Shown here piece after piece: positions 13,518 through 48,487 of a DNA stretch of 64,000 bases. Source of the stretch: Planctomycetota bacterium (lineage in GTDB: Bacteria > Planctomycetota > Uabimicrobiia > Uabimicrobiales > JABWCH01); the NCBI GenBank assembly GCA_017993505.1, contig JAGOMP010000008.1, positions 1-64,000 on the forward strand, in the 5' to 3' direction. Positions within the stretch are counted from its first letter, which is position 1. The number at the start of each line of letters is the position of its first letter. A program made the position numbers and the translations under genes. The notes beneath the pieces were generated by a model, which worked only from the letters and a program-made list of their open reading frames with translations, searched no databases and had not been told where the DNA came from.

Positions 13518-14507
13518 ATGAAAAGCCCAGTACGACATATTTTTCTATATTTTTTATGCTTTTTCTTCATAGGATGTTTAGAAAATAAACAAAATTACAA
13601 GCCAGGAAACATCCACCGTTCTGATCAACTCCATTCACAAACATGGACATATACAGATAATCAAGGTCAAAAAACAGCACATCTACACATAAAAAAAATA
13701 GATAAACAAAAATTATATAGACTCACAGAAAAAACAAATGATCAATTTCAAGATACACAACCTATTCAGGCACTTTTAGTTGCTATTAACCAATACTCTA
13801 CCACACCTCTGTATTATTGCAAACAAGATATGCAACAAGTCAAACAATATTTACAACAACATTTTCAATTTTATGAACAAAAAGTGCATATTATAGAACT
13901 TTATGATACACAAGCTACAAAAAAGAACATACAACAACAACTGCAAAAACAAATACAAAACGCTTCTCTATATTCCACCACTATTTTTGCTTTTTCTGGT
14001 CATGGAACACAACAAGGTCTAAAACTCTATGACCAAGACATTAGCATACAAGAATTATTTCAATATTACCGATGTAATAAAACAAAACGAACTATTTGGA
14101 TTATAGACAGTTGCTATTCTGGCACATTTAGTAATCCTATACAACTTACCCATAACACAAAATTACCTATACAGCTTTCACGCAACATGAAAACTACTGT
14201 CCAACAAAGCATTCCATTATTTCCACAGCCTTCTCCCTATTCTTTTTTACATTGTTTTTTTGGTCAAGGCAAACTTCTTCTTTGCTCGGCAAAATCTAAT
14301 GAAAAAGCCAAAGATGGCATTTTCATTCCTACCTTAATTTCTCATTTGCAAGCTTCAGAACATTCAGTACAATTTCCAGGGATCATCAACAACATCAATC
14401 AATCTATTACGCAATACAATCAAAGTTGTCGTCCAGAAAATATTCTTGCTATGACGCCTTTTTTTCACATGCAAGGTGACATTCAACTTGCTATTATTCC
14501 CTATTAA
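13518..14507 (+). CDS. Caspase-like (C14) lipoprotein
   Basis: The 329-residue product has a lipoprotein signal (FFIGC, Cys20) and then a caspase/metacaspase-type fold: ALLVAINQYS as the first strand, IFAFSGHGTQ with catalytic His162, and TIWIIDSCYSG with catalytic Cys199. Both catalytic residues are intact. Such prokaryotic caspase homologues cut after basic or acidic residues and are tied to stress, development or cell death. Being lipid-anchored outside the cytosol is notable. The ribosome site AAGGAG is strong. It follows the Ser/Thr kinase closely and probably shares its mRNA. The Gln-rich coding strand is strongly A/C-biased. Cleavage specificity is not predictable. Confidence 0.85.
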   Translation: MKSPVRHIFLYFLCFFFIGCLENKQNYKPGNIHRSDQLHSQTWTYTDNQGQKTAHLHIKKIDKQKLYRLTEKTNDQFQDTQPIQALLVAINQYSTTPLYYCKQDMQQVKQYLQQHFQFYEQKVHIIELYDTQATKKNIQQQLQKQIQNASLYSTTIFAFSGHGTQQGLKLYDQDISIQELFQYYRCNKTKRTIWIIDSCYSGTFSNPIQLTHNTKLPIQLSRNMKTTVQQSIPLFPQPSPYSFLHCFFGQGKLLLCSAKSNEKAKDGIFIPTLISHLQASEHSVQFPGIINNINQSITQYNQSCRPENILAMTPFFHMQGDIQLAIIPY

Positions 14508-15547: not shown

Positions 15548-16303
15548 GTGAAAAAAGTGTTATGTAGGATAGATATGTGTTTGCGTACCTTTTTAGGTGT
15601 TTTTGTATTTGTTGTTGTAGTAACATTATTAATGTTTTTATTTGTGTTACTGTTGCCTTTTAAAAGATTACGAATTCGGGTAGCAAATGAGGTTGGAGCT
15701 GCATTGGCTTTGTTTGTTGTGTGGTTGTTAAATGTGAAAATACAATCTGAGAATAAGCCTTCGCCAGAACAAGAGCCTTGTATTTTTGTGGGGAATCATA
15801 CATCAACTTTAGATCTTTTTTTGCAACTTATTTTAGGAGTGAAACGAAATCTTACGATTGCAAAGTGGGAATTGATTTTTGTTCCGTTTCTGGGACTTGC
15901 TTATTATTTGTCTGGACATGGAATTATAAATCGTCAAAATCGAAAGAGTGCGATTAAATCTATGAATAAGGTTGCTACGTATAGTAAGAAGTATCGTTAT
16001 TCATTATGGATCTGGCCTGAGGGAACTCGTAGTAGGGATGGACGTTTGCAGCCTTTTAAGAAAGGGTTTGCACATTTTGCTTTGCAAACTGGGTTTCCCG
16101 TTGTCCCTGTTGTGATTCATCATGCTTATGAAAAATGGTCAAAGGGTAAGATGTTTAACTTACATCGTTTTGTTTTGCGTGTGTACTATGCAGATCCGAT
16201 TCCAACTACAGATTGGAAATTAGAAACATTGAATGAACATGTTGAATCTGTTCGTCAAGTTTTTATAGAACATTTAGAAGAATCTCAACGTCCTTTACCA
16301 TAG
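15548..16303 (+). CDS. plsC: 1-acyl-sn-glycerol-3-phosphate acyltransferase
   Basis: The 251-residue membrane protein has two N-terminal hydrophobic helices, then the acyltransferase motifs NHTSTLD (His84, Asp89), GIINR and PEGTRS (near residue 158), and VVPVVIHH. This fits PlsC, which adds the second acyl chain to lysophosphatidic acid in phospholipid synthesis. The start is GTG with AAAGGA upstream. Its last codons and stop are included in a 76-bp tandem duplication that fills the spacer to hpnJ. Confidence 0.88.
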   Translation: MKKVLCRIDMCLRTFLGVFVFVVVVTLLMFLFVLLLPFKRLRIRVANEVGAALALFVVWLLNVKIQSENKPSPEQEPCIFVGNHTSTLDLFLQLILGVKRNLTIAKWELIFVPFLGLAYYLSGHGIINRQNRKSAIKSMNKVATYSKKYRYSLWIWPEGTRSRDGRLQPFKKGFAHFALQTGFPVVPVVIHHAYEKWSKGKMFNLHRFVLRVYYADPIPTTDWKLETLNEHVESVRQVFIEHLEESQRPLP

Positions 16304-16492
16304 TTTTTATTGCTATGTTTGCACTGGCAATTTTTGCTAGTCTATTATTATTTTTTTAATGCAACGTCCTTTACCATAGTTTTTTTGCTATGTTCGCACT
16401 TAGCGATTTTTGCTAGTCTATTATTATTTTTTGATTTTCAACATCCTTTGTTTGTCTTAGCAATTGTTGCTAGTTCATTATTATTTTTTGAG
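16286..16492. repeat. 76-bp tandem repeat spanning the 3' end of plsC
   Basis: Three imperfect copies start at about 16286, 16362 and 16439. The first contains the final codons and stop of plsC (CAACGTCCTTTACCATAG); the second repeats that stop and the following spacer; the third has diverged. In the hpnJ frame the array reads as hydrophobic repeats (FVLAIVASSLLFF). Confidence 0.85.
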
Positions 16493-16507
16493 TTAGGTGT
16501 TTACTTT

Positions 16508-17917
16508 ATGAAGAAGGTTTTTTTCTTGAATCCTCCATCGTATGAAGGTTTTGATGGGGGGGCTGGGAGTCGTTATCAAGCCAAAAGAGAGGTATTGTCA
16601 TTTTGGTATCCTACATGGCTTGCGCAAACAGCAGCACTTTGTCTAGGTAGTCGTCTTTTAGATGCACCTGTGGAAAATAAGTCAATAGAAGAGACGGTGA
16701 AGGAGATTCAGGGGTATGATTTGTTGGTGATTTATACAAGTACACCTGGTTTTGTAAATGATGCTCGTCTTGCTGTTCAAGTTCGTGAAGTGTATCCTGA
16801 AATTATGATTTGTATGGTAGGTCCGCATTGTACTGTGTTGCCTCAAGAGACTTTGGAAAATTGCCCTGCCTTAGATTTTGTGACTCGCAAAGAGTTTGAT
16901 TATACGATTGTGGAAGTTGCAGAAGGAAAGGCTTTTTCTGAGATTAAAGGAATTTCATATCGCCATGGTGAGGAGATTGTTCATAATCCTGATCGAGAGC
17001 CAATTGAGGATATGGATGCATTGCCCTCTGTCTTAGATGTGTATAAACGTGATTTGTTAATTGATAGGTATTTTATTGGATATTTGTTGCATCCATATTT
17101 ATCTGTTTATACAGGACGTGGTTGTCCTGCACGTTGTACGTTTTGTTTGTGGCCGCAAACAATTGGGGGACGTACGTATCGAACTCGCAGTGTCCAGAGT
17201 GTTGTTCAGGAGATGGCTCGTGCCAAGGAGATGTTTCCAGAGGTCAAGGAGTTTTTCTTTGATGATGATACATTTACTGCGAATTTTAAGAGAGCAGAGG
17301 AGATTGCACGTGGATTAAAGGATCTTGATATTACTTGGTCTTGTAGTTCTCGTGCTAATGTGCCTGAAGAAACATTAGCTGTGTTAAAGGATTGTGGTTT
17401 GCGTTGCATTATGGTAGGTGTGGAATCTGGTAATGATGAAATTTTGAAGAATATTAAGAAGGGAATTACCACAGACCAAATTCGAAAGTTTATGAAAGCC
17501 TGCCGTAAGTTGGGAATTGTGACGCATGCAACGTTTGCGATTGGACTTCCTGGGGAAACAAAGAAAACATTGGAAAAAACGATTCGTTTTGCTCAAGAAA
17601 TTGATCCAGATACAATACAGGTTTCGATTGCTACTCCCTATCCTGGCACGGAATTATACCAAGAGGCTTTAGAAAAAGGTTGGATGACAGAAGAAAATTT
17701 AGTTTCTGGCGAAGGGGTGCAACAAGCAACTTTGCAATATGAAGATTTTACTCGAGAAGAAATTTTTGATATGGTAGAGGTATTTTATCGTCGATATTAT
17801 TTTCGCTTTAAGCCTATCTGGCGAATTGTGAAAACAATGTTGAAGGATAAGGAAATGATGAAACGAAGGTTGCGAGAAGCCAGAGAGTTTTTTCAGTTTT
17901 TGAAGAAACGAAAGTAG
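16508..17917 (+). CDS. hpnJ: Hopanoid biosynthesis-associated radical SAM protein HpnJ
   Basis: From the ATG at 16508 the 469-residue product begins FFLNPPSYEGFDGGAGSRYQ, the characteristic HpnJ opening, followed by a B12-binding-like region and the radical-SAM cluster motif CPARCTFC (near residues 206-213). FFFDDDTFT, GLPGETKKTLE and PYPGTELY also match. HpnJ has been proposed to rearrange the hopanoid side chain toward cyclitol-ether forms. The open frame extends back to 16310, but the extra 66 residues are repeat-derived hydrophobic sequence and HpnJ does not normally have them. No other hpn genes or squalene-hopene cyclase are in the window. Family assignment is strong. Confidence 0.92.
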   Translation: MKKVFFLNPPSYEGFDGGAGSRYQAKREVLSFWYPTWLAQTAALCLGSRLLDAPVENKSIEETVKEIQGYDLLVIYTSTPGFVNDARLAVQVREVYPEIMICMVGPHCTVLPQETLENCPALDFVTRKEFDYTIVEVAEGKAFSEIKGISYRHGEEIVHNPDREPIEDMDALPSVLDVYKRDLLIDRYFIGYLLHPYLSVYTGRGCPARCTFCLWPQTIGGRTYRTRSVQSVVQEMARAKEMFPEVKEFFFDDDTFTANFKRAEEIARGLKDLDITWSCSSRANVPEETLAVLKDCGLRCIMVGVESGNDEILKNIKKGITTDQIRKFMKACRKLGIVTHATFAIGLPGETKKTLEKTIRFAQEIDPDTIQVSIATPYPGTELYQEALEKGWMTEENLVSGEGVQQATLQYEDFTREEIFDMVEVFYRRYYFRFKPIWRIVKTMLKDKEMMKRRLREAREFFQFLKKRK

Positions 17918-18293: not shown

Positions 18294-20480
18294 ATGGAGC
18301 CAATAGAACAAAAAGCGTTAAATTTTTTAGTTGAGTTAACGCGCATTATCAGCAATATGCAGATGTATAATGATGTGCATCCTATTGTAAAATCAGGCGT
18401 GGAAAAGGCTCATGCTACTTTGACGGAAATTCTTAGAATGCAGCCTGTGCTTAATTTTGGTAAGGGTGAAGATGTTTTATTAATTCAAAATAAGCAAATT
18501 ACAGAGAAGAATCCATCAGCTAATCGTTTTGTACAAATGTTAGCTGAACGAAATATTGGCGGCGTTGTTATTCGCCAAGGTGTTACTTTAGCAGAAGTAG
18601 AACAATTTATCAAGTTAATGTCTACGAAAAGGGATTCTGTTTTAGTAAACGGTGCCATCAATCCTGATCTTTTAGCAGGACTTAATAAGATTTCTGTCAA
18701 TGAAATTAAGTATTTGATGGTAGGTGAGGATGAAGATTTAGAAAGTTTGACAGAAGCACGCAAGTTTTTTAATAATGTTTTCACTGAAGAATTTAAGGGT
18801 TTGAAGGGAACTGAAGCTTTAAGTAAATTAGGTATGATTATTCAAAAAATTATGCCTAAGTTGTCTGAGATGCATTTTGATAATGAGCAAGAAGAGCTGT
18901 GGGACTTTTTTGAAAAGTCGCTCACTATGTTTGGCGGCAATGGCATTCAAGAAACAAAGCAAGGTCTTTTAACTTCTGTAAAGTCTATGCCACCAGATGT
19001 CCAAAAGAAGATGTTTGGGCAAGTAATTCGATCGCCCCAGCAACTAGAAGTTGTTTTGAAGAAATTTTCTGATGATAAAAAAGCAGAAATTATTGCTCAA
19101 GAAGCAGCAAATAATAAAGATATGTCCAATGCTTTAAATACGTTGCTGAAGACAAAGGGCGAGATTGTCAAGGTTGTGGAAACTTTGATGAAAAAATTTG
19201 GCAGTGATGTAGACCAGTCTGAGGAATTTACGAAGATTTACCAGATGATTCAACAGGTTGAGGGTGGAGCAAAATTGCAGAAGCCTCGAGGAACGATCTG
19301 GATTGCAGAGCCTGATGAAGAACGTGCTAAAGAGTATGAAGATTTGTTTTTTAAGTTGAATTTTAAGATCCGTCAAATTCCTGATGGTGCTGAACTTTTA
19401 GAAGAAGCTCGTAAACTCCATGAGAAATCAAGAGACGAAGGATGCCCTGATTTGATTTTAATGGAATTGAAGTTGCCTAATAGATCTGGAATTGAAATTT
19501 TAGGTATATTTGATATAGAAAGAATCCGTATTCCTATTATTATTTGTACTACGCTGGTCAACGAAGAAAAGTCTTTTGAAGTCCAAATGTATTATAAGCA
19601 GAAGTTTTTGGTGAAAGATGAGAAGTTACCAGTTCGTGAGTTGATGGAAGCAGCTGATGAGTTTTGTCCAAGAGAAAAAGATGATGATATTGATCTTTCT
19701 TTGGAAGATGATGATGTAGCAGAACCTGAACTTTCTGAAGAAATGAAAGCAGAACTCAATAAAGCAAAAGAAATTCAACGTAATTTGATGCCAAAACAGT
19801 TTCCAGCTATGCCAGGCTATGAATTACAAGCGTTTTATCAACCATATGATCAAGTAGGCGGTGATTATTATGATGTAATTCCAATTGATAATGATCATGT
19901 TGGTATTTTAGTTGCAGACGTTTCTGGACACGGTATTTCAGGTGCTATGGTTATGGTTATGGTTCGTTCAGCAATTCATATGTATGCAAATTCTACTACT
20001 TCGCCTCGAGCGTTGCTAGAGAAGGTGAACCCACTGATTACACGTGATATTTTGCCAGGTTTGTTTGTGACTGTGTATTATGCAGTGTTGAATATGCCTC
20101 AACGTATATTGACTTGTTCGTGTGCAGGACATAACCCAGCTATTTTTTGGGATTATCAAACGAAGCAGTCAAGGTATACCCAAAAGGGTGGTATGCCATT
20201 AGGTATTCTTTCTGGTCCTGCTTTTACAGCTACGTTGAAGGAAGAAGTCATTCCAATGAAACGTGGCGACCGTATTATTCTGTACACAGATGGTATGGTA
20301 GAAACTATGGATCCCAATGGGGATGAGTTTTCTGAAGAACGTTTTATGGTAGAAGTAAACCGTTCTGCAGGACAACATTCTAGTGTCTGTGTCAAACACT
20401 TGGTTACATCTGTTATTCGGTTTCAAGACACAGCTCCACAACATGATGATTTGACGCTCATAACGCTTCGTAGTATATAG
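18294..20480 (+). CDS. SpoIIE/RsbU-type PP2C phosphatase with receiver-like domain
   Basis: The 728-residue protein has three parts. Residues 1-330 are helical with no clear family (starting LNFLVELTRIISNMQMY). About 340-460 resemble a receiver domain (GTIWIAEPDEERA, LILMELKLPNRSG), but the phosphoacceptor Asp is replaced by Glu (LMELK), so it is probably constitutive or non-phosphorylated. The C-terminal 240 residues are a SpoIIE phosphatase: AKEIQRNLMPKQFP, VGGDYYDV, VADVSGHGISGAM, SCAGHNPA, LYTDGMVE and DDLTLITL. Such enzymes dephosphorylate anti-sigma antagonists in partner switching; the GHKL protein at 6195-7553 is a possible partner type. AAAGG precedes the ATG. Confidence 0.9.
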   Translation: MEPIEQKALNFLVELTRIISNMQMYNDVHPIVKSGVEKAHATLTEILRMQPVLNFGKGEDVLLIQNKQITEKNPSANRFVQMLAERNIGGVVIRQGVTLAEVEQFIKLMSTKRDSVLVNGAINPDLLAGLNKISVNEIKYLMVGEDEDLESLTEARKFFNNVFTEEFKGLKGTEALSKLGMIIQKIMPKLSEMHFDNEQEELWDFFEKSLTMFGGNGIQETKQGLLTSVKSMPPDVQKKMFGQVIRSPQQLEVVLKKFSDDKKAEIIAQEAANNKDMSNALNTLLKTKGEIVKVVETLMKKFGSDVDQSEEFTKIYQMIQQVEGGAKLQKPRGTIWIAEPDEERAKEYEDLFFKLNFKIRQIPDGAELLEEARKLHEKSRDEGCPDLILMELKLPNRSGIEILGIFDIERIRIPIIICTTLVNEEKSFEVQMYYKQKFLVKDEKLPVRELMEAADEFCPREKDDDIDLSLEDDDVAEPELSEEMKAELNKAKEIQRNLMPKQFPAMPGYELQAFYQPYDQVGGDYYDVIPIDNDHVGILVADVSGHGISGAMVMVMVRSAIHMYANSTTSPRALLEKVNPLITRDILPGLFVTVYYAVLNMPQRILTCSCAGHNPAIFWDYQTKQSRYTQKGGMPLGILSGPAFTATLKEEVIPMKRGDRIILYTDGMVETMDPNGDEFSEERFMVEVNRSAGQHSSVCVKHLVTSVIRFQDTAPQHDDLTLITLRSI

Positions 20481-20490
20481 ATTGTTTATA

Positions 20491-20514
20491 AGCGAGTGAG
20501 TTTGGACACTCGCT
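20491..20514 (+). terminator. Hairpin between phosphatase and kinase genes
   Basis: AGCGAGTG/CACTCGCT (20491-20498 and 20507-20514) forms a perfect 8-bp stem followed only by TTCTAA. With the kinase start 20 bases later, it may weaken read-through or protect the upstream mRNA rather than stop transcription fully. Confidence 0.5.
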
Positions 20515-20533
20515 TTCTAATATGGAGTTCACA

Positions 20534-21799
20534 ATGGAGAAATTGGAAACATATCTTGGCACTTTGGCTGTGGAAAAAGGGTTTATTTCGCAGGAATGTT
20601 TAGCAGCTTGTATACAAAGAATGGATGAAGAATCATATGATAAACCAATTGATAATTTTTTAATGGAAAGAAAGCTTATCAATGAAGAACAATTACAAAA
20701 TCTGCAAATGAAACGAAAAATTAATCTACGAAAATTAGAAGAGCAGGCTTTATTAGAGTATCTTCAAAAGATGAAATTAGTTGATTCTAATTTATTAATG
20801 AGATTTACAGCAATTCAACGAAATGCCAGTCAACAGAAAACATATGTTCCTATATCCATGCTTCTTGTATCGCATGGATCTCTTACGCAAGATGAAATTG
20901 ATAAAATGTTGCAGTTACGAGAAGTTCAAAGATATGTACTAGAAGCAATTGGTAGAGATGATCTACGAAGGACTAGCATGATAGGGCGAGTTCTCGGTGG
21001 ATATGAAATTCAATCAAAAATTGCAGCGGGTGGCATGGGAGTTGTGTATAAAGCATTACAACTCGAACTTAATCGAATTGTTGCACTCAAAATTATCTTT
21101 GAAAAATTTGCAAGTACTCCAAGACATCTAAAACAGTTTTTTAGAGAGGCTAAACTTTCTGCAGATCTAAACCATCCTAATTTAGTTCATATTTTTGAAA
21201 TGGGCGATGAACAAGGGTTTTTCTACTATTCGATGGAATTAGTAGAAGGCACAAATTTTGGCGACTATATCAAAGAATATGAAGGAAATAAATTACCACA
21301 AGAAGAAGCTATGGATTACATGTTGCAAGCTGGGAGAGGTCTAGAACATATCCATAATCATGATATTATTCATAATGATATTAAGCCAGCGAATTTTATT
21401 ATACGAAGCGATAAAATTTTGAAAATTATGGACTTGGGATTGGCTCGTCAATCTTATATTCCACAAAAGAAGCGTGCCACTATGGGAACGCCATTTTATA
21501 TGGCACCAGAATTGATTTATAAGCCAGAAGAGGCAGACCATAGAGCAGATATTTATGCTATGGGAGTTTCTTATTATAAGATGCTAACAGGAGAACATCC
21601 TATTACAGGGGACAATGCCAAGGAGATTATTGAGAATATTACGCGTCAACGTCCAAAACCTATTCAGTTTTATACTCCTGAGATTAATCCAGAAATTAAC
21701 CGCGTTGTATTGAAAATGATTGAAAAGGATGTGAAGGAACGATATCAAAGTATGACAGATGTTATCAATGATTTAGATCGTATTCTTTTTATAGATTAA
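20534..21799 (+). CDS. Ser/Thr protein kinase, variant catalytic loop (HND, DLG)
   Basis: The start is placed at the second ATG (20534), which has GGAG 6 bases upstream; the first, at 20522, overlaps that site. The 421-residue protein has an MshEN-like helical N-terminus (LGTLAVEKGFISQECLAACI, then LVSHGSLTQDEIDKML). The kinase domain begins near residue 155 with AAGGMG and VALKII. The catalytic loop reads HNDIKPAN instead of HRD, and the metal motif DLG instead of DFG. The catalytic Asp, Lys and metal Asp are all kept, so activity is plausible; loss of the HRD Arg suggests no activation-loop phosphorylation. The phosphatase gene lies just upstream. Confidence 0.88.
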   Translation: MEKLETYLGTLAVEKGFISQECLAACIQRMDEESYDKPIDNFLMERKLINEEQLQNLQMKRKINLRKLEEQALLEYLQKMKLVDSNLLMRFTAIQRNASQQKTYVPISMLLVSHGSLTQDEIDKMLQLREVQRYVLEAIGRDDLRRTSMIGRVLGGYEIQSKIAAGGMGVVYKALQLELNRIVALKIIFEKFASTPRHLKQFFREAKLSADLNHPNLVHIFEMGDEQGFFYYSMELVEGTNFGDYIKEYEGNKLPQEEAMDYMLQAGRGLEHIHNHDIIHNDIKPANFIIRSDKILKIMDLGLARQSYIPQKKRATMGTPFYMAPELIYKPEEADHRADIYAMGVSYYKMLTGEHPITGDNAKEIIENITRQRPKPIQFYTPEINPEINRVVLKMIEKDVKERYQSMTDVINDLDRILFID

Positions 21800-21957: not shown

Positions 21958-21989
21958 AAAAACAGTAGCTCTCAAAAGCTACTGTTTTT
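21958..21989. terminator. Bidirectional terminator between kinase and TolC-like genes
   Basis: AAAAACAGTAGCT and its complement AGCTACTGTTTTT form a 13-bp stem with a 6-base loop, with A and T tracts at the ends, between two convergent genes. Confidence 0.85.
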
Positions 21990-23661
21990 ATATTTTTCCT
22001 AATACTGTTCCTGTGGCAAAAGCAATGTCTACGAGTGATTTTTGGTATTCGATGATGGCATTGAGTTCTGCTGTTTTTGCATCAGAAAGGGATGTGAGAG
22101 CTTGTAGAAGATCGGTAGTGGTTATATGACCGTATTGATATTGAATTTGTTCCATTTTATATGTTTCTTCAGCATGTCGTAGTGCCATTTTATTAGATAG
22201 GATGCGTTGCCAGTTTTGTTCTAATGTGTCGATGGCATTGAGAATTTCTTCTTGGATAGCATCATAGAGTATTTTTTGATTTTCTTTTGTTTTTTGTTGT
22301 GCTAGGAGTGTGGCTTCGAGTCGTTTTGTAGCTGCTTTGTTTCCGAGAGGAATGTCTAGAGTGAGTCCTACAGCGAGTTCATTAAGTTCTGATTGGAATA
22401 TCTGACGGAGGGCTTTTCTAAAGGAGGGTTGTTTTTGACCTGTAGGAAAGTTATTTGTGGTAGCATCAGAACCTAGGGCAGAGTAGGAAAATTCTAGGTT
22501 TAAATTGGGAAGAGTGGCGTTTTTATTAATCAAGACATTTCGTTTGTCTATAAGTTGTTGGATCTCATTTTCAATGAGTTCCATTCTATTTTTTTGTGCG
22601 AGTTCTATAACGGTTTGTCGTTGGAATATGAGTCCTTCAAGATAAGGTGCTGTTTTAGGGATTAAGATTGTTTCTGAATTTAATGGAATATTAGGATGTA
22701 AGATGTATCTTTTTAAGGAACGTTCGATATGACGGCGTGATGTTTCAGCAATGATGATGGCTTCAAATTGACGGGCCACTCCTAGTTCAGCTCTCAATAT
22801 TTCTACTTTTGTTCTCACCCCTTCTTCCACCATTTTTTTTGCTGTTTCTACTTGTTGTTGTGCTAATTTGTATTTGTCTACTTGTATTTTTACTTGTTCG
22901 TAGGCTGCAACGTAGTCCCAATATGTTTTTTCTGTGTTTGCTAGTAGTTGAATAGTAGCAAGTTTTAGTCGAGCATCTGCTTGGTGGACTTGGAGTCCAG
23001 CGATGTCTATAGAAGCATGGTTAACTTCCCAACCAAAGTTTTTTAAGAGAGGTTGTTGTATGTTTAGGTGAATACCTAAGTCTTGGGATTTTTGTAGAAA
23101 GTAGTCATATCTTAGAGTGTTGTGGATCGGATCCATAATATAGTTACCAATGTGATTTCGAGAGAAACCGTAGGACATTCCGACACTTACGTCACCTCCT
23201 ATATGATTAGGAATGCGGATGGAGGGTCCAAAAGATGTCTGAGATTGGGAATTTCCCACTTCGTCTTCATTATATTTGAACTGGGTAGTGGCGGAGAGAA
23301 TGGATTCAAATTTCGCTTTTTCTGCTTGGTACGTTTTTTCAGCGATTTCTGGATTGATTTTTTCTACTTTTAAAGATAAGTTATTTTCTAGGGCGAGTTT
23401 TCTTGCATCTATTAAAGATAGATCGTAGGTAGGTAGAATTTTTTTATTATCTACGATTGTTTGTGCTTTTTGGAAAATTTCTTCTTTGTCTGGATTTTTA
23501 GAGAGTTCTTGGGAATTATCTATTTTTTCAGAAATTTTCATTGGTTCTAGGGTATCGATGGTATGTAGGCTTTTTCGTATTTCTTCGTAGTTTTCTAGGT
23601 TATAGGAACAGGAGGGAAGTAAGATAAAGAAACAAAGGATAGCACAAATACAGAGAAACAT
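21988..23661 (-). CDS. TolC-family outer membrane efflux lipoprotein
   Basis: The 557-residue protein starts with a lipoprotein-like signal (FFILLPSC) and continues as a TolC/OEP channel: DARKLALENNLSLKVEKINPEI, long heptad-type helices, QLLANTEKTYWDYVAAYEQV, and a second repeat with ATLPNLNLEFSY and YQYGHITTTDLLQAL. Such trimers form the outer-membrane exit of tripartite exporters. No membrane fusion protein or pump is adjacent. It lies 97 bases downstream of three RiPP precursor genes on the same strand, but a hairpin with a T run separates them. Export of the RiPP through it is a position-based idea. Confidence 0.88.
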   Translation of the reverse strand: MFLCICAILCFFILLPSCSYNLENYEEIRKSLHTIDTLEPMKISEKIDNSQELSKNPDKEEIFQKAQTIVDNKKILPTYDLSLIDARKLALENNLSLKVEKINPEIAEKTYQAEKAKFESILSATTQFKYNEDEVGNSQSQTSFGPSIRIPNHIGGDVSVGMSYGFSRNHIGNYIMDPIHNTLRYDYFLQKSQDLGIHLNIQQPLLKNFGWEVNHASIDIAGLQVHQADARLKLATIQLLANTEKTYWDYVAAYEQVKIQVDKYKLAQQQVETAKKMVEEGVRTKVEILRAELGVARQFEAIIIAETSRRHIERSLKRYILHPNIPLNSETILIPKTAPYLEGLIFQRQTVIELAQKNRMELIENEIQQLIDKRNVLINKNATLPNLNLEFSYSALGSDATTNNFPTGQKQPSFRKALRQIFQSELNELAVGLTLDIPLGNKAATKRLEATLLAQQKTKENQKILYDAIQEEILNAIDTLEQNWQRILSNKMALRHAEETYKMEQIQYQYGHITTTDLLQALTSLSDAKTAELNAIIEYQKSLVDIAFATGTVLGKI

Positions 23662-23696: not shown

Positions 23697-23735
23697 AAAA
23701 AAAGCGTTTCCATGCCTTAATGGGGATGAAAACGC
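23697..23735 (-). terminator. Hairpin between RiPP precursors and the TolC-like gene
   Basis: Read on the minus strand, GCGTTT...AAACGC (+ strand 23704-23709 and 23730-23735) with partial inner pairing is followed by seven T. It probably ends most transcripts from the precursor genes. Confidence 0.5.
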
Positions 23736-23758: not shown

Positions 23759-24121
23759 TTAGCAACTACAGCAAGGTGTGCAACAACATGATCCTACGGA
23801 CCAACCACCTGCAACAGCTTCGAGTTGTTCTTCAGAAAGTTCACCACTGATGCCTTCTGGTGGATTTTCTGGATATACGAATTGGATTTTGCCGCTTTGT
23901 AGACCTTCGTTCCACATTTTTACTTGGCTTTCTGGAGTGCATTCTGGAGTGGCTTCTTCTTGGGGAGAAATAAGTTCTATAGTTGCATTTCCTGCATCAA
24001 GTCCAAATTCTTTTAATACTTCTGCGGGGTTATTCATAAAACGAGCTTTTAATTCAGCATCGCCCCATGTTTGGACAAGTAGGTTGCCATAAATCTGGAG
24101 AAATTTTTCTTCTGTTACCAT
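23759..24121 (-). CDS. NHLP-type RiPP precursor 3, core WSVGSCCCTPCCSC
   Basis: This 120-residue peptide has a long leader related to the nitrile hydratase alpha-subunit (NHLP family: EEKFLQIYGNLLVQTWGD, then NPAEVLKEFGLDAG). It ends in ELSEEQLEAVAGG, the double-Gly site cut by C39-type export peptidases. The predicted core is 14 residues with six Cys. ATG at 24121 has AAAGGA; the frame extends five codons further without support. Compared with its siblings it has Asn and Lys substitutions in the leader (FMNNPAEVLKEF) and Ile for Val later. It is the last of three near-identical tandem genes. No maturation enzyme is adjacent; the modification is unknown. Confidence 0.88.
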   Translation of the reverse strand: MVTEEKFLQIYGNLLVQTWGDAELKARFMNNPAEVLKEFGLDAGNATIELISPQEEATPECTPESQVKMWNEGLQSGKIQFVYPENPPEGISGELSEEQLEAVAGGWSVGSCCCTPCCSC

Positions 24122-24146
24122 ACAAATTCCTTTCATTCAAAGAAAA

Positions 24147-24512
24147 TTAGCAACAGCAGCAAGGTGTGCAGCAGCAAGAACCAACTTCCCAACCACCACC
24201 TGCTACAGCTTCGAGTTGTTCTTCAGAAAGTTCACCACTGATACCTTCTGGTGGATTTTCTGGATATACGAATTGAATTTTGCCGCTTTGTAGACCTTCG
24301 TTCCACATAGCTACTTGGCTTTCTGGAGTGCATTCTGGTGTGGCTTCGTCTTGGGGAGAAATAAGTTCTACAGTTGCATTTCCTGCGTCAAGTCCAAATT
24401 CTCTTAATACTTCTGCTGGATTAGCCATGAAACGAGCTTTTAATTCAGCATCGCCCCATGTTTGAACAAGTAAGTTGCCATAAATCTGGAGAAATTTTTG
24501 TTCTGTTATCAT
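24147..24512 (-). CDS. NHLP-type RiPP precursor 2, core GWEVGSCCCTPCCCC
   Basis: This 121-residue copy shares almost the whole leader with its neighbours, including the ELSEEQLEAVAGG cleavage motif, but has an extra Gly after it. The core has seven Cys (GSCCCTPCCCC), the most of the three, and Glu in place of Ser after Trp. AAAGGAGT precedes the ATG. The intergenic gaps of 25-26 bases share TTTCTTTGAATAAAAGGA-type sequence, so the array arose by tandem duplication of a unit of about 390 bp. Confidence 0.9.
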   Translation of the reverse strand: MITEQKFLQIYGNLLVQTWGDAELKARFMANPAEVLREFGLDAGNATVELISPQDEATPECTPESQVAMWNEGLQSGKIQFVYPENPPEGISGELSEEQLEAVAGGGWEVGSCCCTPCCCC

Positions 24513-24538
24513 GACGGACTCCTTTTATTCAAAGAAAA

Positions 24539-24901
24539 TTAGCAACAACAACAAGGAGAACAACTGCATGATCCAATGGACCAACCACCGGCAACAGCTT
24601 CGAGTTCTTCTTCTGTAAGTTCGCCACTCAAACCCTCTGGTGGGTTTTCTGGATAGATGAACTTGATGGTGCCAGTTTGTAGACCTTCATTCCACATTCT
24701 TACTTGGCTTTCTGGGGTGCATTCTTCGGTGATTTCTTCTAGGGGAGAATAAAGTTCTACAGTTGCATTTCCTGCATCAAGTCCAAATTCTCTTAATACT
24801 TCTGCTGGATTAGCCATAAAACGAGCTTTTAATTCAGCATCGCCCCATGTTTGGACAAGTAAGTTGCCATAAATTTGGAGAAATTTTTCTTCTGCTACCA
24901 T
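24539..24901 (-). CDS. NHLP-type RiPP precursor 1, core WSIGSCSCSPCCCC
   Basis: First gene of the array, 120 residues, with a near-perfect ribosome site (AAAGGAGG) that suggests high expression. The leader is the same NHLP type, but the middle differs (ELYSPLEEITEECTPESQ) and the cleavage motif reads ELTEEELEAVAGG. The core replaces two positions of the siblings by Ser (SCSCSPCCCC) and keeps six Cys. The shared pattern of the three cores is W-x-[VI]-G-S-C-x-C-x-P-C-C-x-C. NHLP leaders are known to guide thiazole-forming, lanthionine-forming and other enzymes; which applies here cannot be read. Confidence 0.9.
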   Translation of the reverse strand: MVAEEKFLQIYGNLLVQTWGDAELKARFMANPAEVLREFGLDAGNATVELYSPLEEITEECTPESQVRMWNEGLQTGTIKFIYPENPPEGLSGELTEEELEAVAGGWSIGSCSCSPCCCC

Positions 24902-24975
24902 AATTTGACCTCCTTTGTAAAATTTGGTAAGCTATATCATATATTATATTACAATAAATATATATAATTCATTCA

Positions 24976-25003
24976 ATTATATCATGAATTTTCATAAAAT
25001 CAA
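24976..25003 (-). promoter_or_regulatory. Candidate promoter of the RiPP precursor array
   Basis: On the minus strand TTGATT (+ 24998-25003) and TATAAT (+ 24976-24981) are 16 bases apart, giving a leader of about 70 bases before the first precursor. The region is very AT-rich, so chance matches are likely. Confidence 0.35.
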
Positions 25004-25585: not shown

Positions 25586-25800
25586 TCCATCCATGTAAGG
25601 ATAATCTTATTATATTAGTTTTTGTGGGAAAAGCAAGTAAAATTTTTTTTTTTTGTAAATTTTTTGTAAGGTACTTGTTTTTTTATGTTTATGGTTTATT
25701 TTTTTGTAAAAAAATAAAAAAGTGTTGTTTGTTTTTAATAAGATACAATAGAATAGAGTAGAATAAATTTCTTTTTAAGATTTTTTTAGTGGTGGAATAT

Positions 25801-27699
25801 ATGGAACTTCGTTATTCAAATTTTCAATTAGAATATAATAAACATGATATTGTGGTTCATCCTTTAGGATTGCATTTAAAAAAAGGAGATAGAATAGGAA
25901 TTATTGGCGAATCAGGTGCTGGTAAGTCTACGCTTGTGAAAGGACTTTTTGGAAATATTTCTGGAAATTTTTATCATTCTGGAAATGTTGATGTAGAAGG
26001 GAAAGTCAGAGATATAGCGAATTGTCGTTCTTTATTTCATCGATGGTGGGGCAGGAAAGTCAGTTTTGTTTTTCAAGAGCCAGTATCTTCTTTAGCAGAG
26101 CAATATACTATTCGTCAGCAGTTGCAGCATGTTTTGGAATATAAAGGTACATCTTCAGAAAAGATGAAGGAGCAGGTTCAATATTATTTGCAATTGGCTT
26201 GTTTTCCTTTAGAGCGTCAGAATGCATATGCTAAGGAGTTAAGTGGTGGAGAAAATCAACGTGCTTGCATTGCTTTAGCTATGGCTGCACAGCCAGAAAT
26301 TTTAATTGCAGATGAGCCTACAACAAGTCTAGATTTAATTAAACAGAAAAAAATTATTGAAACTTTAAAAAATATTTTAAAACAGTATCCAGATTTAATT
26401 TTGATTTTTGTAACGCATAGTTTAGAAATATTGCAGGAGCTTTTTGAAGATAATGGTTGGATTTATATTTTTTATAGAGGTTTTTTATTTGAGAAATTTC
26501 ATCTTTCTCAAATACAAAAAAAAGTCCATCATCCGTATACAAGGCAGTTATTTTATAATTTTTTGAATGATTATAGACCTATTACGTTGCATTTTTCTTT
26601 TCAAGAAAGTATGCCTGCTGTAGAACAAAGTAAGTTGATAGAGCCATGTCCTTATCTTTCGCAGTGTAGTTTATATGCTTTTATGCAAAAGGAGAAGATT
26701 AGGACATCTTGTAGTGTTCAGAAACCAAAATTAGTAAAATTCGGAGAACAACAAGAGGTAGCATGTCATTTTTTGCCTTTTTTTGAGACAATGAAGGAGA
26801 ATGCTTGTGTACTTCCTTTTGTTTTAGAGACGCCACAAAAAAATCAAGTTCTTTTGCAAGTAAATGATTTGTCAGTAGGATATGAACAAAATCCAAATGT
26901 ATTGAAAGTATCAGATTATATGATTTATCATAAACAGCATGTTGGCATTTTAGGAGAAACAGGGTCTGGGAAAACAACTTTGGCGAAAGTTTTTAGCCTA
27001 TTAAACCCTTATGGAATAGAAAAATCAGGGAAGATATGGCGTTATTTTGAAGGGAAGTTACAAGAAGAAGATTGCATTGAGATGCCACAACATTATCATA
27101 ATTTAAATATTTTGACGTGGCAACACCCTTGGGAAGTGTTTCCTCCTAATGAAACTATGGAGACTATATTAAAGGATGCGTGTCAGATTTGGTCTCGTCT
27201 TTGGAACAAAAAGGAAAATAGAAAAGAGCAAAAGGAGAGAATTCAATATGTATTGAATCAATTAGGGTTTGAAAAGAATTTTTCCTTGCAAGTTTCACCA
27301 CAAAATTATAGTGGTGGGCAGAGAAAACGTCTTTTATTAGCTCGTTCGTTTCTTGCTTGTGGTTATCCTAATGAAGAGGATAAGAAAATTCCAAGGATAC
27401 TGTATTTAGATGAACCTCTTAGCGGTATTGATGCTGTGAATAAAAGTAAAGTTTTGCATTGTATTCAGAATGCTGGTAAGGTATTAAATGCTACTCTTGT
27501 TGTGATTACACATGATCCTCGAGTGGCGTATTATCTTTGTCAAGAATTTATTTTTATGAAACAAGGAGAAATTATTGAAGCTGGTAGTCGAGAAAAAATT
27601 TTGTCGTATTCCTCTACTTTAAATCCTCACCCTTATGTGATGGAACTTTTACAAGCTACGCCATCACTCAATGGTTTTCATTCAAGTTTTTTTTCATAG
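25801..27699 (+). CDS. Fused double ATPase of a peptide-type ABC transporter (OppDF/YejF-like)
   Basis: Two complete ATP-binding halves are fused in about 632 residues: Walker A GESGAGKST (near 36), LSGGENQR and ADEPTTS in the first; GETGSGKTT (near 385), YSGGQRKR and YLDEPLSGID in the second. Between them is a Cys-bearing segment (CPYLSQC, TSC, VACHF) as in the C-terminal oligo_HPY part of OppD/DppD. Such proteins power import of oligopeptides or nickel. I use ATG at 25801, which has GGTGG upstream, rather than GTG at 25789. No permease or binding protein gene is adjacent. Its end overlaps the end of the convergent tamB-like gene by 22 bases. Confidence 0.87.
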   Translation: MELRYSNFQLEYNKHDIVVHPLGLHLKKGDRIGIIGESGAGKSTLVKGLFGNISGNFYHSGNVDVEGKVRDIANCRSLFHRWWGRKVSFVFQEPVSSLAEQYTIRQQLQHVLEYKGTSSEKMKEQVQYYLQLACFPLERQNAYAKELSGGENQRACIALAMAAQPEILIADEPTTSLDLIKQKKIIETLKNILKQYPDLILIFVTHSLEILQELFEDNGWIYIFYRGFLFEKFHLSQIQKKVHHPYTRQLFYNFLNDYRPITLHFSFQESMPAVEQSKLIEPCPYLSQCSLYAFMQKEKIRTSCSVQKPKLVKFGEQQEVACHFLPFFETMKENACVLPFVLETPQKNQVLLQVNDLSVGYEQNPNVLKVSDYMIYHKQHVGILGETGSGKTTLAKVFSLLNPYGIEKSGKIWRYFEGKLQEEDCIEMPQHYHNLNILTWQHPWEVFPPNETMETILKDACQIWSRLWNKKENRKEQKERIQYVLNQLGFEKNFSLQVSPQNYSGGQRKRLLLARSFLACGYPNEEDKKIPRILYLDEPLSGIDAVNKSKVLHCIQNAGKVLNATLVVITHDPRVAYYLCQEFIFMKQGEIIEAGSREKILSYSSTLNPHPYVMELLQATPSLNGFHSSFFS

Positions 27700-38334: not shown

Positions 38335-41300
38335 TTATGGTACGATAATACAAACTTTCCAGATATTGTTATTTTTTGTTTTAATAGTTTCCAGAAGAAA
38401 TTCTTTTTTTTCAGGAGAATGAATTCGAATTTTTTGTAATATATTTTGTAAAGATTGTTTCTGTAAAGAATAGTAGTATACAGTGGGTGTTTTTTGTATT
38501 ATTTTAGGACCTATGGAGCAAGTTTCGTTGCTAGGTTTTGTTTCAATTACTAAAGGAATTCTAAGTTTACTATATCCTTTTGTATGTTTATACATAGAAT
38601 TTTTGGCAAATTTATAAGCCTCATCCACTGCTTCTTCATATTGTTCTAATTTAGTATATTGTTTTATTTTTTGTATGATAATTTTTGCTTTTTTTTCTGT
38701 TGCATTGATTTTCTGTTGGTATTTTTGTAAATGTACTGTTAAGGTTTCTTGGTATTGTAAATTTTGAAATACAGATTTTGCTTCTTTTGATAGTTTATAG
38801 GCTGCTGGATAGTTATGTTGTAATTCTAAAAATTTTACTTCTTCTATGTAAGCATCCCAGATAATTTTTTCAAATAATTCGTATTGTTCTTGATCAAATT
38901 TGATTTGTTTTGATTTTAATTGTTTGAAATATTGGTTTACTTTATTCCATAAAAACGGAGAATGGATTCCTTCTGCGACGTGATACATTTTTTTATATAT
39001 TTTTTTTATATTGTCTTTGTTTGTTTGATTCATGTATTTATACATAAGTCGTCCAATGGAAGTTTCATATATAAAAATTGTGATACATAAAATCAATGTA
39101 AAAAGTAGTCGAAAGAATATTTTTTTTCGTTTTTTAAAATTGATTACATCAGATGCTTTTTCATATCCTAATAAATTCAGTTGTTTTAAGATGTCTGTGC
39201 GGTTTTTATCTAAATACAATATATGTGCCATGATTTCTGCTTTGGCTTGAACATCGTTCATGCGTTCGTAAATTTTTAATGATTCTTCGCATTGTTTAAT
39301 CGCAGATTTAAAGTCTTTACGTTTTTCATATATTAGGACTAAGGCTTTAGAACATTCTATTAAACTTCTGTCTAATTTTAATAATAATAAACAAATTCGT
39401 TCAATGTATTGTTCATTTTTTTTAGGATGGATTAAAATTTTTTGAAAGAATTTTAATCCTAATGTTTTTGCTTTTTCATATGATTGTGCTTGAACATAGA
39501 GTTCAATCAATTGCATGCTTATATCTAAGTCAGCATCAAAAAGTTCTAATGCTTTTTCAAAATATACCATTGTATAGCCACATTGTCCCATTTGCTGATA
39601 GATGTTTCCTAGTTTTATATAAAATTGAGAGGCTACTTCATAATTTTGTTTTTGTTCGTAAAATATGGCGACAGTTTTACAAATCTGAGGATCTTCTGGA
39701 ACTAGGTTGTGTGTAGTTAATAATACGGTTTCTATGTTTTTACTATTCCATTTTTTTAAGTTTTTTGTGGCGAGTTCTTGTAGATATAATGCAATTTCTA
39801 GAATTTTTTCACGAATGATGCTAATGATTAAAAAATGACAAGGGAGAGAAGCCCAATTCGTAGTTTGAATAAGGTCTGGTGTTGACAATGATTGCATTAA
39901 TTGTTTCCCCAAAAAGGAAACAATTTTGTAAGGATCATTACCACCTTCTAGAAATTTTCCTGTGTGAGAGTCTATTTTTACAATTGAATTGATATCTGGT
40001 AAAAATTTTGTCCAAACGCTCCAATCGTGCATTTGGAAGATAATTTCTAAAAAACTTTCATACTCAAAAGGCAATTGTACATCTAGTTCAGGTAAAGATA
40101 GCCAATGGCGATATTGAATAAATGAATAGGAAGGTTTTGAAATGTTTGAAAATAGTTGTAGGGCATTTTTATAGTTATTGATTAAGCGTGTGATTTCTTG
40201 TTTTTGATTGTTGATAGAAAATAATAAAACTTTATTTTTTAGAAAATATAGACCGATCTGTTCTTTTTTCCCTTGAAAAGAAATGCCGCCTGAGGAGATC
40301 ATGATGCGAAGAATTTGCAATGTATTGGCAAAATTCATTAAAAAAACGCTTGGATGTTTTATAATCTGGGCTCGTTGTTCAAAATCATTTCCTATATTTT
40401 CTTGACTTCTATTGTCTAAAAATTCAAAATCACATATTGGAATACTTAAAAGATCTACTAAATACATACGAAAAATTGCTTCTGCTCTTTCCGTCTCCTC
40501 TATTCTGTTGATTTCTTCTGCTCTATTTGTGCAAATATAATTGGAGTATAATGAAACGCCTGCTTCAGATAAAATAATTTCTAGGCGTTTTTCTTTTTTA
40601 CCAATCTCTAAAATACCAAGGCGACCTGTATAGGCAACGTTTAGTAGGGTATTAATGAGACGTTGCCAATCAGCATCTACTATTGTGGGTTGATATAAAT
40701 CTGAATACTGAGAATTCTCATTAGAACAACGAATACAACAATTTTTTTCTGGTATAAAATGTTCAAAACATAGATTTTCTACACGACATTTTTGACATTG
40801 AAATGTCTGACTAGCAATGTTGTTTTTTCCACATTGTGGACAAAGCAATAGAGAAGCATATAAAGTAATTTGCTCCATCTCTTTTAAAACTTCAGAAGCA
40901 TCCATAAATCGTTTTTGATATTCTGGGGCTAACATTCCACTGAGAAAATTAACAATAGAAGTGGGAAATTTTTTGGGAGAGTTTAATATTTGTTCTGGAA
41001 TTTCAATTTTTCGTTCTTGTTTTGCCATACGAAAACTATTTGTGCGTTTATTACCTTTAGAATAGGGATTTGCATATGTTCTTCTCGTTTTTGCTGTATG
41101 TTCTGTTTTATATTCTTTTTCATATAGTAAGCGAAATAATATTGCACCTATTTGGTAAACATCTGTTTCTTTTTGTAGTATATTAGTATGATACTGTTCA
41201 GGAGCTAAATATGAACAAGATGTTTGGTCTAATTCATCACCATGGCTGATTCGTATTCCAAAACCACGAAGATAAGATTTCCCCGAGTGATCTATACAAA

Positions 41301-41736
41301 TACAACTTGGGGTTATTCCACCATGAATAATGTTATTTTCATGTCCTAAAGCAATAACTTCCACAATGCTTTTCAAAATTGTCATGGATTCTTTTAAAGA
41401 AAAAGAACGATTATTCTCTAACATAGAGGCCAAAGAATCCCCGTCGATCCACTGTTCTACTACATATGGAATTTTAAATTGTTCTTCAAATCCAAAATTA
41501 TAGAGGGTAATTAAGTTTTCATGCTCCAGTGCTGAAATACTATGAAAATTTTCTTGTAATCCATCTGTTTCATAAGGAGGTAATAAAAGTTTTATAGAAG
41601 CAGGGCGATCTAAAGCTTCATGAATGCCTTGAAAAATTAATATGTATGGTTCTTTTTTTACAAAGGAAACAATTTTAAATTTTCCAAATGTTTTGCCAAT
41701 AAAAGAATCTATATCAAACGGACCATTATGATTCAT
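38335..41736 (-). CDS. Membrane pseudokinase with zinc ribbon and TPRs
   Basis: From the ATG at 41736 (the frame reaches a TTG at 41760) the product is 1133 residues. Residues about 15-270 follow a Ser/Thr kinase fold, with SIKLL in the Lys position, but the catalytic loop reads HGGITPS instead of HRDIKPxN and GFG replaces DFG, so catalysis is very unlikely. Next come a zinc ribbon (CPQCG, CQKC and further Cys pairs, about 298-340), a region like DUF4388 output domains (GILEIGKKEKRLEIILSEAG), TPR-type helices (about 640-840), one membrane helix (about 870) and a periplasmic tail. It diverges from the double kinase gene; between them lies a 26-bp palindrome. Probably a scaffold. Confidence 0.85.
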   Translation of the reverse strand: MNHNGPFDIDSFIGKTFGKFKIVSFVKKEPYILIFQGIHEALDRPASIKLLLPPYETDGLQENFHSISALEHENLITLYNFGFEEQFKIPYVVEQWIDGDSLASMLENNRSFSLKESMTILKSIVEVIALGHENNIIHGGITPSCICIDHSGKSYLRGFGIRISHGDELDQTSCSYLAPEQYHTNILQKETDVYQIGAILFRLLYEKEYKTEHTAKTRRTYANPYSKGNKRTNSFRMAKQERKIEIPEQILNSPKKFPTSIVNFLSGMLAPEYQKRFMDASEVLKEMEQITLYASLLLCPQCGKNNIASQTFQCQKCRVENLCFEHFIPEKNCCIRCSNENSQYSDLYQPTIVDADWQRLINTLLNVAYTGRLGILEIGKKEKRLEIILSEAGVSLYSNYICTNRAEEINRIEETERAEAIFRMYLVDLLSIPICDFEFLDNRSQENIGNDFEQRAQIIKHPSVFLMNFANTLQILRIMISSGGISFQGKKEQIGLYFLKNKVLLFSINNQKQEITRLINNYKNALQLFSNISKPSYSFIQYRHWLSLPELDVQLPFEYESFLEIIFQMHDWSVWTKFLPDINSIVKIDSHTGKFLEGGNDPYKIVSFLGKQLMQSLSTPDLIQTTNWASLPCHFLIISIIREKILEIALYLQELATKNLKKWNSKNIETVLLTTHNLVPEDPQICKTVAIFYEQKQNYEVASQFYIKLGNIYQQMGQCGYTMVYFEKALELFDADLDISMQLIELYVQAQSYEKAKTLGLKFFQKILIHPKKNEQYIERICLLLLKLDRSLIECSKALVLIYEKRKDFKSAIKQCEESLKIYERMNDVQAKAEIMAHILYLDKNRTDILKQLNLLGYEKASDVINFKKRKKIFFRLLFTLILCITIFIYETSIGRLMYKYMNQTNKDNIKKIYKKMYHVAEGIHSPFLWNKVNQYFKQLKSKQIKFDQEQYELFEKIIWDAYIEEVKFLELQHNYPAAYKLSKEAKSVFQNLQYQETLTVHLQKYQQKINATEKKAKIIIQKIKQYTKLEQYEEAVDEAYKFAKNSMYKHTKGYSKLRIPLVIETKPSNETCSIGPKIIQKTPTVYYYSLQKQSLQNILQKIRIHSPEKKEFLLETIKTKNNNIWKVCIIVP

Positions 41737-41754
41737 ATTACACACTCTTAGATA

Positions 41755-41780
41755 TTGCAAAATTTAGCTAAATTTTGCAA
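41755..41780. promoter_or_regulatory. 26-bp perfect palindrome between divergent kinase genes
   Basis: The half-site TTGCAAAATTTAG is followed at once by its exact complement. It sits 19 bases upstream of the pseudokinase start and about 190 bases before the double-kinase gene, as expected of an operator for a dimeric regulator. A cruciform or RNA hairpin is the alternative. Confidence 0.65.
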
Positions 41781-41973
41781 AATTGTATTTTTTTGAAGAA
41801 ATGAGTTTTGGTCAACATATATATAACTATTTTACCATGAAAATACATACTGTCAAATTTTATACATCTAAGCATTGTTTTTTCTATTGAGTTTTATTAA
41901 AAAATAGTATAAAATTGAAAATAATGTGATAAAAAAATATAATTTCAACATCTAAGCGATTAGGGTAGCTATT

Positions 41974-45777: not shown

Positions 45778-45857
45778 TGCAATATCCTTAGCACACAATA
45801 TTAGTGCATATCTTAATGAAAGATTGCATGAAATGTAAGATAATTTCTATTTATTAG

Positions 45858-45910
45858 AAAAAAATTGATGAATGGAATATATTCATAAAATTCCATTCAT
45901 CAATTTTTTT
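45858..45910. terminator. Strong bidirectional terminator between kinase genes
   Basis: A perfect 21-bp stem (45858-45878 with 45890-45910), containing ATTGATGAATGGAAT, has an 11-base loop and A/T tracts at both ends. It lies between two convergent kinase genes. Confidence 0.9.
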
Positions 45911-45964
45911 TGCTTTAGAAATCTTAAGCACGATATTTAGAATATTTTTTTGTTCATCATAGTA

Positions 45965-48454: not shown

Positions 48455-48487
48455 TTCGGAAAACTCCAAATGTTGAGATTGTTTGTT

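Follow-up and report, generated by a model that had tools for sequence, protein, structure and literature searches.

The window, that is, the whole 64,000-nucleotide stretch of DNA analysed here, carries three tandem genes encoding NHLP-type RiPP precursors of 120, 121 and 120 residues. They are located on the minus strand, 24 kb inside a 71 kb contig (C102), and the open reading frames agree with what was originally predicted for this place. As also predicted, all three copies possess a Gly-Gly site followed by a short core with 6–7 Cys, 14 residues long in each. The features of the region are the following:

24976..25003, minus strand: candidate sigma-70-like promoter, TTGATT-16-TATAAT with extended TG (10/12), a weak call
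24909..24914, minus strand: Shine-Dalgarno-like AGGAGG 5' of copy 1, predicted from the sequence
24542..24901, minus strand: precursor copy 1, 120 aa, with an NHLP-type leader in residues 1–106 and core WSIGSCSCSPCCCC (6 Cys); the leader scores 36.3 bits for TIGR03793 (cut-off 50.9) and 31.7 bits for TIGR04351 (cut-off 65)
24542..24583, minus strand: core of copy 1, 14 codons 3' of Gly-Gly
24519..24523, minus strand: Shine-Dalgarno-like AGGAG 5' of copy 2, likewise predicted
24150..24512, minus strand: precursor copy 2, 121 aa, with AGGG in the leader and core WEVGSCCCTPCCCC (7 Cys); TIGR03793 37.7 bits, TIGR04351 31.7 bits
24150..24191, minus strand: core of copy 2, 14 codons 3' of Gly-Gly-Gly (one Gly extra)
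24128..24132, minus strand: Shine-Dalgarno-like AAGGA 5' of copy 3, favouring a start at 24121
23762..24121, minus strand: precursor copy 3, 120 aa, with core WSVGSCCCTPCCSC (6 Cys); TIGR03793 39.1 bits, TIGR04351 33.9 bits
23762..23803, minus strand: core of copy 3, 14 codons 3' of Gly-Gly
23697..23735, minus strand: intrinsic terminator, GCGTTTTCAT stem and U-run, 3' of copy 3

The three copies are 83–93% identical to one another and are separated by stop-to-start gaps of 25–26 nt. The longest frame of copy 3 has 125 aa, and its Shine-Dalgarno-like site indicates the ATG at 24121 as the start. The region has 8 promoter-like sites where 6.0 are expected, no excess over chance, which is why the promoter at 24976..25003 is considered a weak call. 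The terminator hairpin has a folding energy of −14.7 kcal/mol (z −4.3), and none of 200 shuffles was equally stable. Given this hairpin and the U-run 3' of copy 3, the precursors form a small three-gene transcription unit that closes ahead of the downstream TolC-like gene (21988–23661). The latter has the same direction and was rejected as part of the unit, since it lies beyond the terminator. Moreover, a pairwise pN/pS of 0.28–0.35 between the leaders and a ribosome-binding-like site at each start make the three open reading frames look like real genes.

For all three precursors, the top two families were TIGR03793 (NHLP leader; 36–39 bits, E 5e-10 to 4e-9) and TIGR04351 (TOMM_nitrile_2; 32–34 bits), neither of which reached its curated cut-off. 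Since the best family scores below its cut-off, the precursors are, as far as profiles can tell, divergent NHLP relatives and not typical members. NHLP motif 1 (..AW.D.EF...L), with its similarity to nitrile hydratase alpha, is present as VQTWGDAELKARFMANP. Motif 2 (ELSDEQLDAVAGG) is found as ELSEEQLEAVAGG and ELTEEELEAVAGG, and a variable core rich in Cys, Ser and Thr comes after it.

The nitrile hydratase metal motif CxxCSC is absent from all three copies, as expected of NHLP precursors, and that metal site lies in the portion of the enzyme that NHLPs do not have (PMC2887384). The end of copy 3 had been likened to the nitrile hydratase site CTLCSC; CTPCCSC, however, allows no placement of CxxCSC. 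The resemblance fails on position too, as the core starts past the end of the nitrile hydratase-like region.

The best solved relatives of the leader were 8tb1 (E 6e-6) and 1v29 (E 2e-5), nitrile hydratase alpha chains being also matched. Entry 8tb1 is the one given for the NHLP leader MprE7, a YcaO substrate (PMC12455567), and Wakeel et al. (2025) reported that an NHLP leader docks on its YcaO via an L(X)4L motif and helix alpha-1 (PMC12455567). In our alignment, L95 and L100 fall on L70 and L75 of MprE7, W19 on W17 and Q9 on Q7. Within alpha-1, G12, N13 and V16 replace S10, Q11 and A14, and these three differences could reflect a different YcaO partner surface. Relative to MprE7, the leader also contains an insert, CTPESQVxMWNEGLQSGK, with a predicted helix at 63–76. 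A Foldseek search of the PDB with an AlphaFold model of the leader (pLDDT 69, three-row alignment) gave no significant fold match.

The cores are built of Cys runs (CCC and CCCC) linked via Thr-Pro, with 2–4 Ser/Thr versus 6–7 Cys in each. Divergence at their synonymous sites greatly exceeds that in the leaders (pS 0.61–0.96 at ~8 sites versus 0.16–0.27), an excess that is significant in two of the three pairs (Fisher p 0.012, 0.0015 and 0.15), and their pN is low (0.10–0.16). The core pN/pS of 0.13–0.19 lies below that of the leaders, albeit over few sites. Since synonymous divergence is so much higher while pN stays low, the core residues are held without drift, so far as these few sites indicate. 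Thus, of the proposed leader conservation with core drift, the conserved Cys-rich core stands and the drift does not. Gene conversion among the leaders, which would have made them uniform, is a possible cause, as inferred from a core synonymous divergence so far above theirs. Five core positions vary (S/E, I/V, S/C, S/T and C/S), and three of these swap only Cys, Ser and Thr, the residues cyclisable by YcaO.

A search of other genomes for the core consensus, suggested as a check of the original prediction, brought no second example: no close relative of the precursor was found by the pattern method in the GTDB genome collection or in viral contigs, and a phylum-wide profile search with the precursor (392 genomes) gave, outside its own genome, weak generic matches only.

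A scan of the window proteins, covering all but a few ORFs, revealed no modification enzyme. Two other genes of the window were considered and rejected as RiPP components: the B12 radical SAM protein at 16310–17917 belongs to hopanoid synthesis as HpnJ (734 bits against a cut-off of 578), and the ABC protein at 25789–27699 is an ATPase of the oligopeptide/nickel-import type. The window also holds an acyltransferase together with the HpnJ radical SAM protein (15548–17917; hopanoid synthesis), a caspase-domain (Peptidase_C14) protein with a lipoprotein-like N-terminus adjoining a Ser/Thr kinase (13518–14507), and many Ser/Thr kinase (PknB-type) and phosphatase-like signalling proteins (18294–21799 and 38335–48469), three of them large (834–1267 aa).

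We therefore surveyed the genome of the same organism, a 3.08 Mb draft (85.6% complete, 1.6% contamination), by targeted searches and fetched stretches. Two fused YcaO cyclodehydratases were found, on contigs C44 and C99 (TIGR03604 254 and 257 bits, cut-off 219; TIGR03882 150 and 122 bits, cut-off 36.9). In both, the match to LynD runs almost end to end and takes in the N-terminal leader-binding region (E 1.9e-171 and 1e-164); MusD and TruD are matched too, and LynD and TruD prefer Cys. By eye, the motifs CWEC...CSIC, EAIERYSG and EEAILQG..E.VERDA are intact in both. A cyclic-nucleotide-binding, bacteriocin-transport-associated protein adjoins the YcaO on C44, and a phylum-wide search for this cyclodehydratase at E 1e-20 returned matches in its own genome only. 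Adjoining the same locus, two large proteins of repeated formylglycine-enzyme-like segments were recognised by eye, one of them with an N-terminal kinase (L043, 2–6919).

Contig C98 encodes a SagB-type FMN dehydrogenase (TIGR03605 166 bits, cut-off 78.4), whose best PDB match is the thiazoline oxidase CyaGox (1.4e-68). Exporters lie on two further contigs: C16 carries an NHLM ABC1 protein with a C39 peptidase (1009 bits, cut-off 853) and an HlyD protein (286 bits, cut-off 156), and C82 carries an NHLM ABC2 protein (854 bits, cut-off 709) plus an HlyD-like adaptor. With the precursors on C102 and the cyclodehydratases and dehydrogenase on C44, C98 and C99, the genes do not form a single cluster; clustering is not a requirement for a TOMM, since split NHLP systems are on record (PMC2887384).

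Could the enzyme contigs have been misbinned? A short repeat, TTGCTCTGGGGA, forms an array at 49–395 of the window, at the start of the contig, and has 19 matches in the window versus 0.2 expected. It recurs on at least four other contigs (C44, C16, C98 and C82), and five loci from four relatives lack it, so that it is probably a genome-specific dispersed repeat; the part of C99 that was read contains no linking repeat. The GC contents of the contigs agree (0.32–0.35). Because of the common repeat and the agreeing GC, which count against misbinning, the enzyme contigs most likely belong to the organism of the window. The assembly may break at these arrays, so that the spread over contigs need not reflect the true distances between these genes, although the precursors lie well inside their own contig.

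Given that precursors and enzymes lie apart and that the genome is a draft, one might regard the precursors as relicts or orphans whose processing has been lost. This is hardly credible for three copies that are all intact, evolve under purifying selection and have both ribosome-binding-like sites and a terminator, in a genome that holds the full machinery.

We propose instead, with a probability of roughly 0.83, that the precursors are modified in trans to thiazoline/thiazole (azoline/azole) peptides, cut after Gly-Gly and exported. The parts of this scheme that can be read from the genes themselves are the precursors, their Gly-Gly site and L(X)4L motif, the two fused YcaOs, the SagB-type oxidase and the NHLM exporters with a Cys protease domain. 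The pairing of enzyme and substrate rests on genome content and not on linkage, as no cyclodehydratase lies beside the precursors. Fused YcaO cyclodehydratases classically act on just such cores, dense in Cys, Ser and Thr and preceded by an NHLP leader (PMC2887384), and the Cys-run core after the NHLP-type leader is best read in this way.

According to this proposal, the folded leader would dock on the leader-binding region (RRE) of a YcaO via L95-X4-L100 and its first helix. Most of the Cys in the core would then be turned into azolines by the YcaO, each with a loss of 18 Da, and the Ser within Gly-Ser-Cys may be turned likewise. Some azolines would be oxidised further by the SagB enzyme, which brings the total loss to 20 Da for each azole. 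The calculated [M+H]+ of the unmodified core is 1438.44 for copies 1 and 3 and 1496.43 for copy 2; at −18.011 per azoline and −20.026 per azole, it would fall to 1318.28 and 1356.24 with all Cys as thiazole. Cleavage after Gly-Gly would fall to the C39 domain of the NHLM ABC transporter, and the ABC/HlyD system would export a 14-residue oligo-azole peptide. The two YcaOs would thus work in trans on one small precursor transcription unit, in a compact system of a 14-residue core, two YcaOs and one SagB enzyme. By analogy with the class, an antagonistic or signalling role of the product would be usual.

It had been objected that such a core does not fit thiazole peptides for want of Ser/Thr ring partners. 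This objection falls because each azole ring closes onto the preceding backbone amide, partners being of importance for lanthipeptides; moreover, two fused YcaOs are found in the same genome. A bolder version, which we regard as rather unlikely, is that the CCC and CCCC runs are fully cyclised in trans, so that three to four thiazoles, joined directly to one another, make up a C-terminal block next to a second one. Such a peptide would be an oligothiazole of unusual density, possibly binding metal via its ring nitrogens, and each of the two YcaOs would perhaps serve different positions or copies.

Alternatively, the core could stay in the thiol form: no rings would form, and the exported peptide, rich in Cys, would bind metal (Cu, Zn) or be folded by disulfides. 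Such a peptide would agree with 6–7 Cys within 14 residues, with a core held at the protein level despite diverged synonymous sites and with no modification enzyme having been found adjoining the precursors. It would, however, leave two TOMM cyclodehydratases, a SagB oxidase and NHLM exporters in a genome where the window precursors are the sole NHLP/Nif11-type substrates found: our searches of this genome yielded no NHLP precursor outside the window and no Nif11 precursor. MNIO enzymes, which also commonly modify Cys in metallophore RiPPs (bufferin or methanobactin type), were looked for, and none (PF05114) was found in this genome. With the CxxCSC spacing of nitrile hydratase also lacking, the metal-binding, disulfide or polysulfide product offered in the original prediction found no specific support, and we consider a thiol core improbable.

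Radical SAM chemistry (thioether crosslinks or C-methylation), alone or together with the YcaOs, was weighed as well. On C16, a gap of 72 bp separates the NHLM HlyD gene from a co-directional gene for a B12-type radical SAM protein (L045, 5681–7315), which is a possible extra tailoring enzyme. One SPASM protein exists elsewhere in the genome, and the conserved Trp of the core is a possible target. The C16 protein nevertheless remains below the cut-offs of all families (PhpK-like 181/600, rSAM_ocin_1 83/282), nothing connects it to the precursors, and the leader indicates docking of the YcaO type; we hold modification by this route to be of low probability.

As for a lanthipeptide, in which Ser/Thr are dehydrated and Cys added, a genome of the same order (G004) does have NHLP precursors adjoining a LanC-domain (LanM-type) synthetase and an NHLM exporter. 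In the 85.6% complete genome studied here, no LANC_like domain was found, and Ser/Thr are outnumbered by Cys in each core, which makes a lanthipeptide very improbable.

The azoline/azole system proposed here is of a kind already known. Haft, Basu and Mitchell (2010) defined NHLP-TOMM by a TIGR03793 precursor, a fused cyclodehydratase (TIGR03882) and NHLM exporters, and NHLPs far from the cyclodehydratase were already reported in Microscilla marina and Methylobacterium sp. 4-46 (PMC2887384). Leader motifs 1 and 2, Gly-Gly, the Cys/Ser/Thr-rich core, the fused CD and B enzymes and NHLM ABC1, ABC2 and HlyD are common to both. In contrast to that family, the leader here scores below the TIGR03793 cut-off and has an extra helix-forming insert ahead of the PxxP stretch, the core consists of contiguous Cys runs, and the machinery is spread over five other contigs.

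The Mpr system comprises precursors MprE1-10, the YcaO MprC and the oxidase MprD (PMC12455567). It has in common with the present one an NHLP leader with L(X)4L, the alpha-1 Gln and Trp docking residues, a Cys core, several precursors and a flavin oxidase. It differs in having one YcaO instead of two, identity at the alpha-1 contacts is limited to two of five residues, and the core here is very Cys-dense. Burkholderia NHLP-Burk precursors (TIGR03795) are likewise tandem, with an insert N-terminal to the PxxP motif, and one member per pair has a C-terminal Cys (PMC2887384); they are without motif 2 and NHLM exporters, both of which are present here. In G004, contigs C62 and C51 (L019, L020, L021) hold at least seven NHLP precursors of ~170–190 aa around the LanM-type synthetase, with NHLM exporters on C62 and two more LanC-domain frames on C51; there, the same leader family goes with lanthipeptide chemistry and variable cores.

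The same set of parts occurs on plasmid p057_G of Nostoc sp. C057 (NZ_CP040288.1), where one cluster contains an NHLP precursor, YcaO, SagB, cNMP protein, HlyD and ABC1. The identities to the genome studied here are 42% for YcaO (to that on C44), 41% for SagB, 32% for HlyD and 51% for ABC1. Those genes are clustered, whereas ours are dispersed; the Nostoc NHLP core (IIRQPIGLVLDSLS) is without Cys, and Nif11 precursors are also present there. The nearest relative found of the precursors, and the only one found in the plasmid collection, is encoded on a Streptomyces cadmiisoli plasmid (NZ_CP030074.1, 791069–791482; 33% identity, E 4e-7). It shares the WNxGLQxG insert; the NHLM genes for HlyD, ABC1 and ABC2 come immediately after it, and that locus also contains a YcaO gene. 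Its core, VKINCQIL, has one Cys, unlike the 6–7 found here. What sets the present system apart is its divergent leader, unusually Cys-dense core and dispersed genes. Precursors can stand alone with their enzymes and exporters elsewhere, and such cases would be missed by cluster-based RiPP mining.
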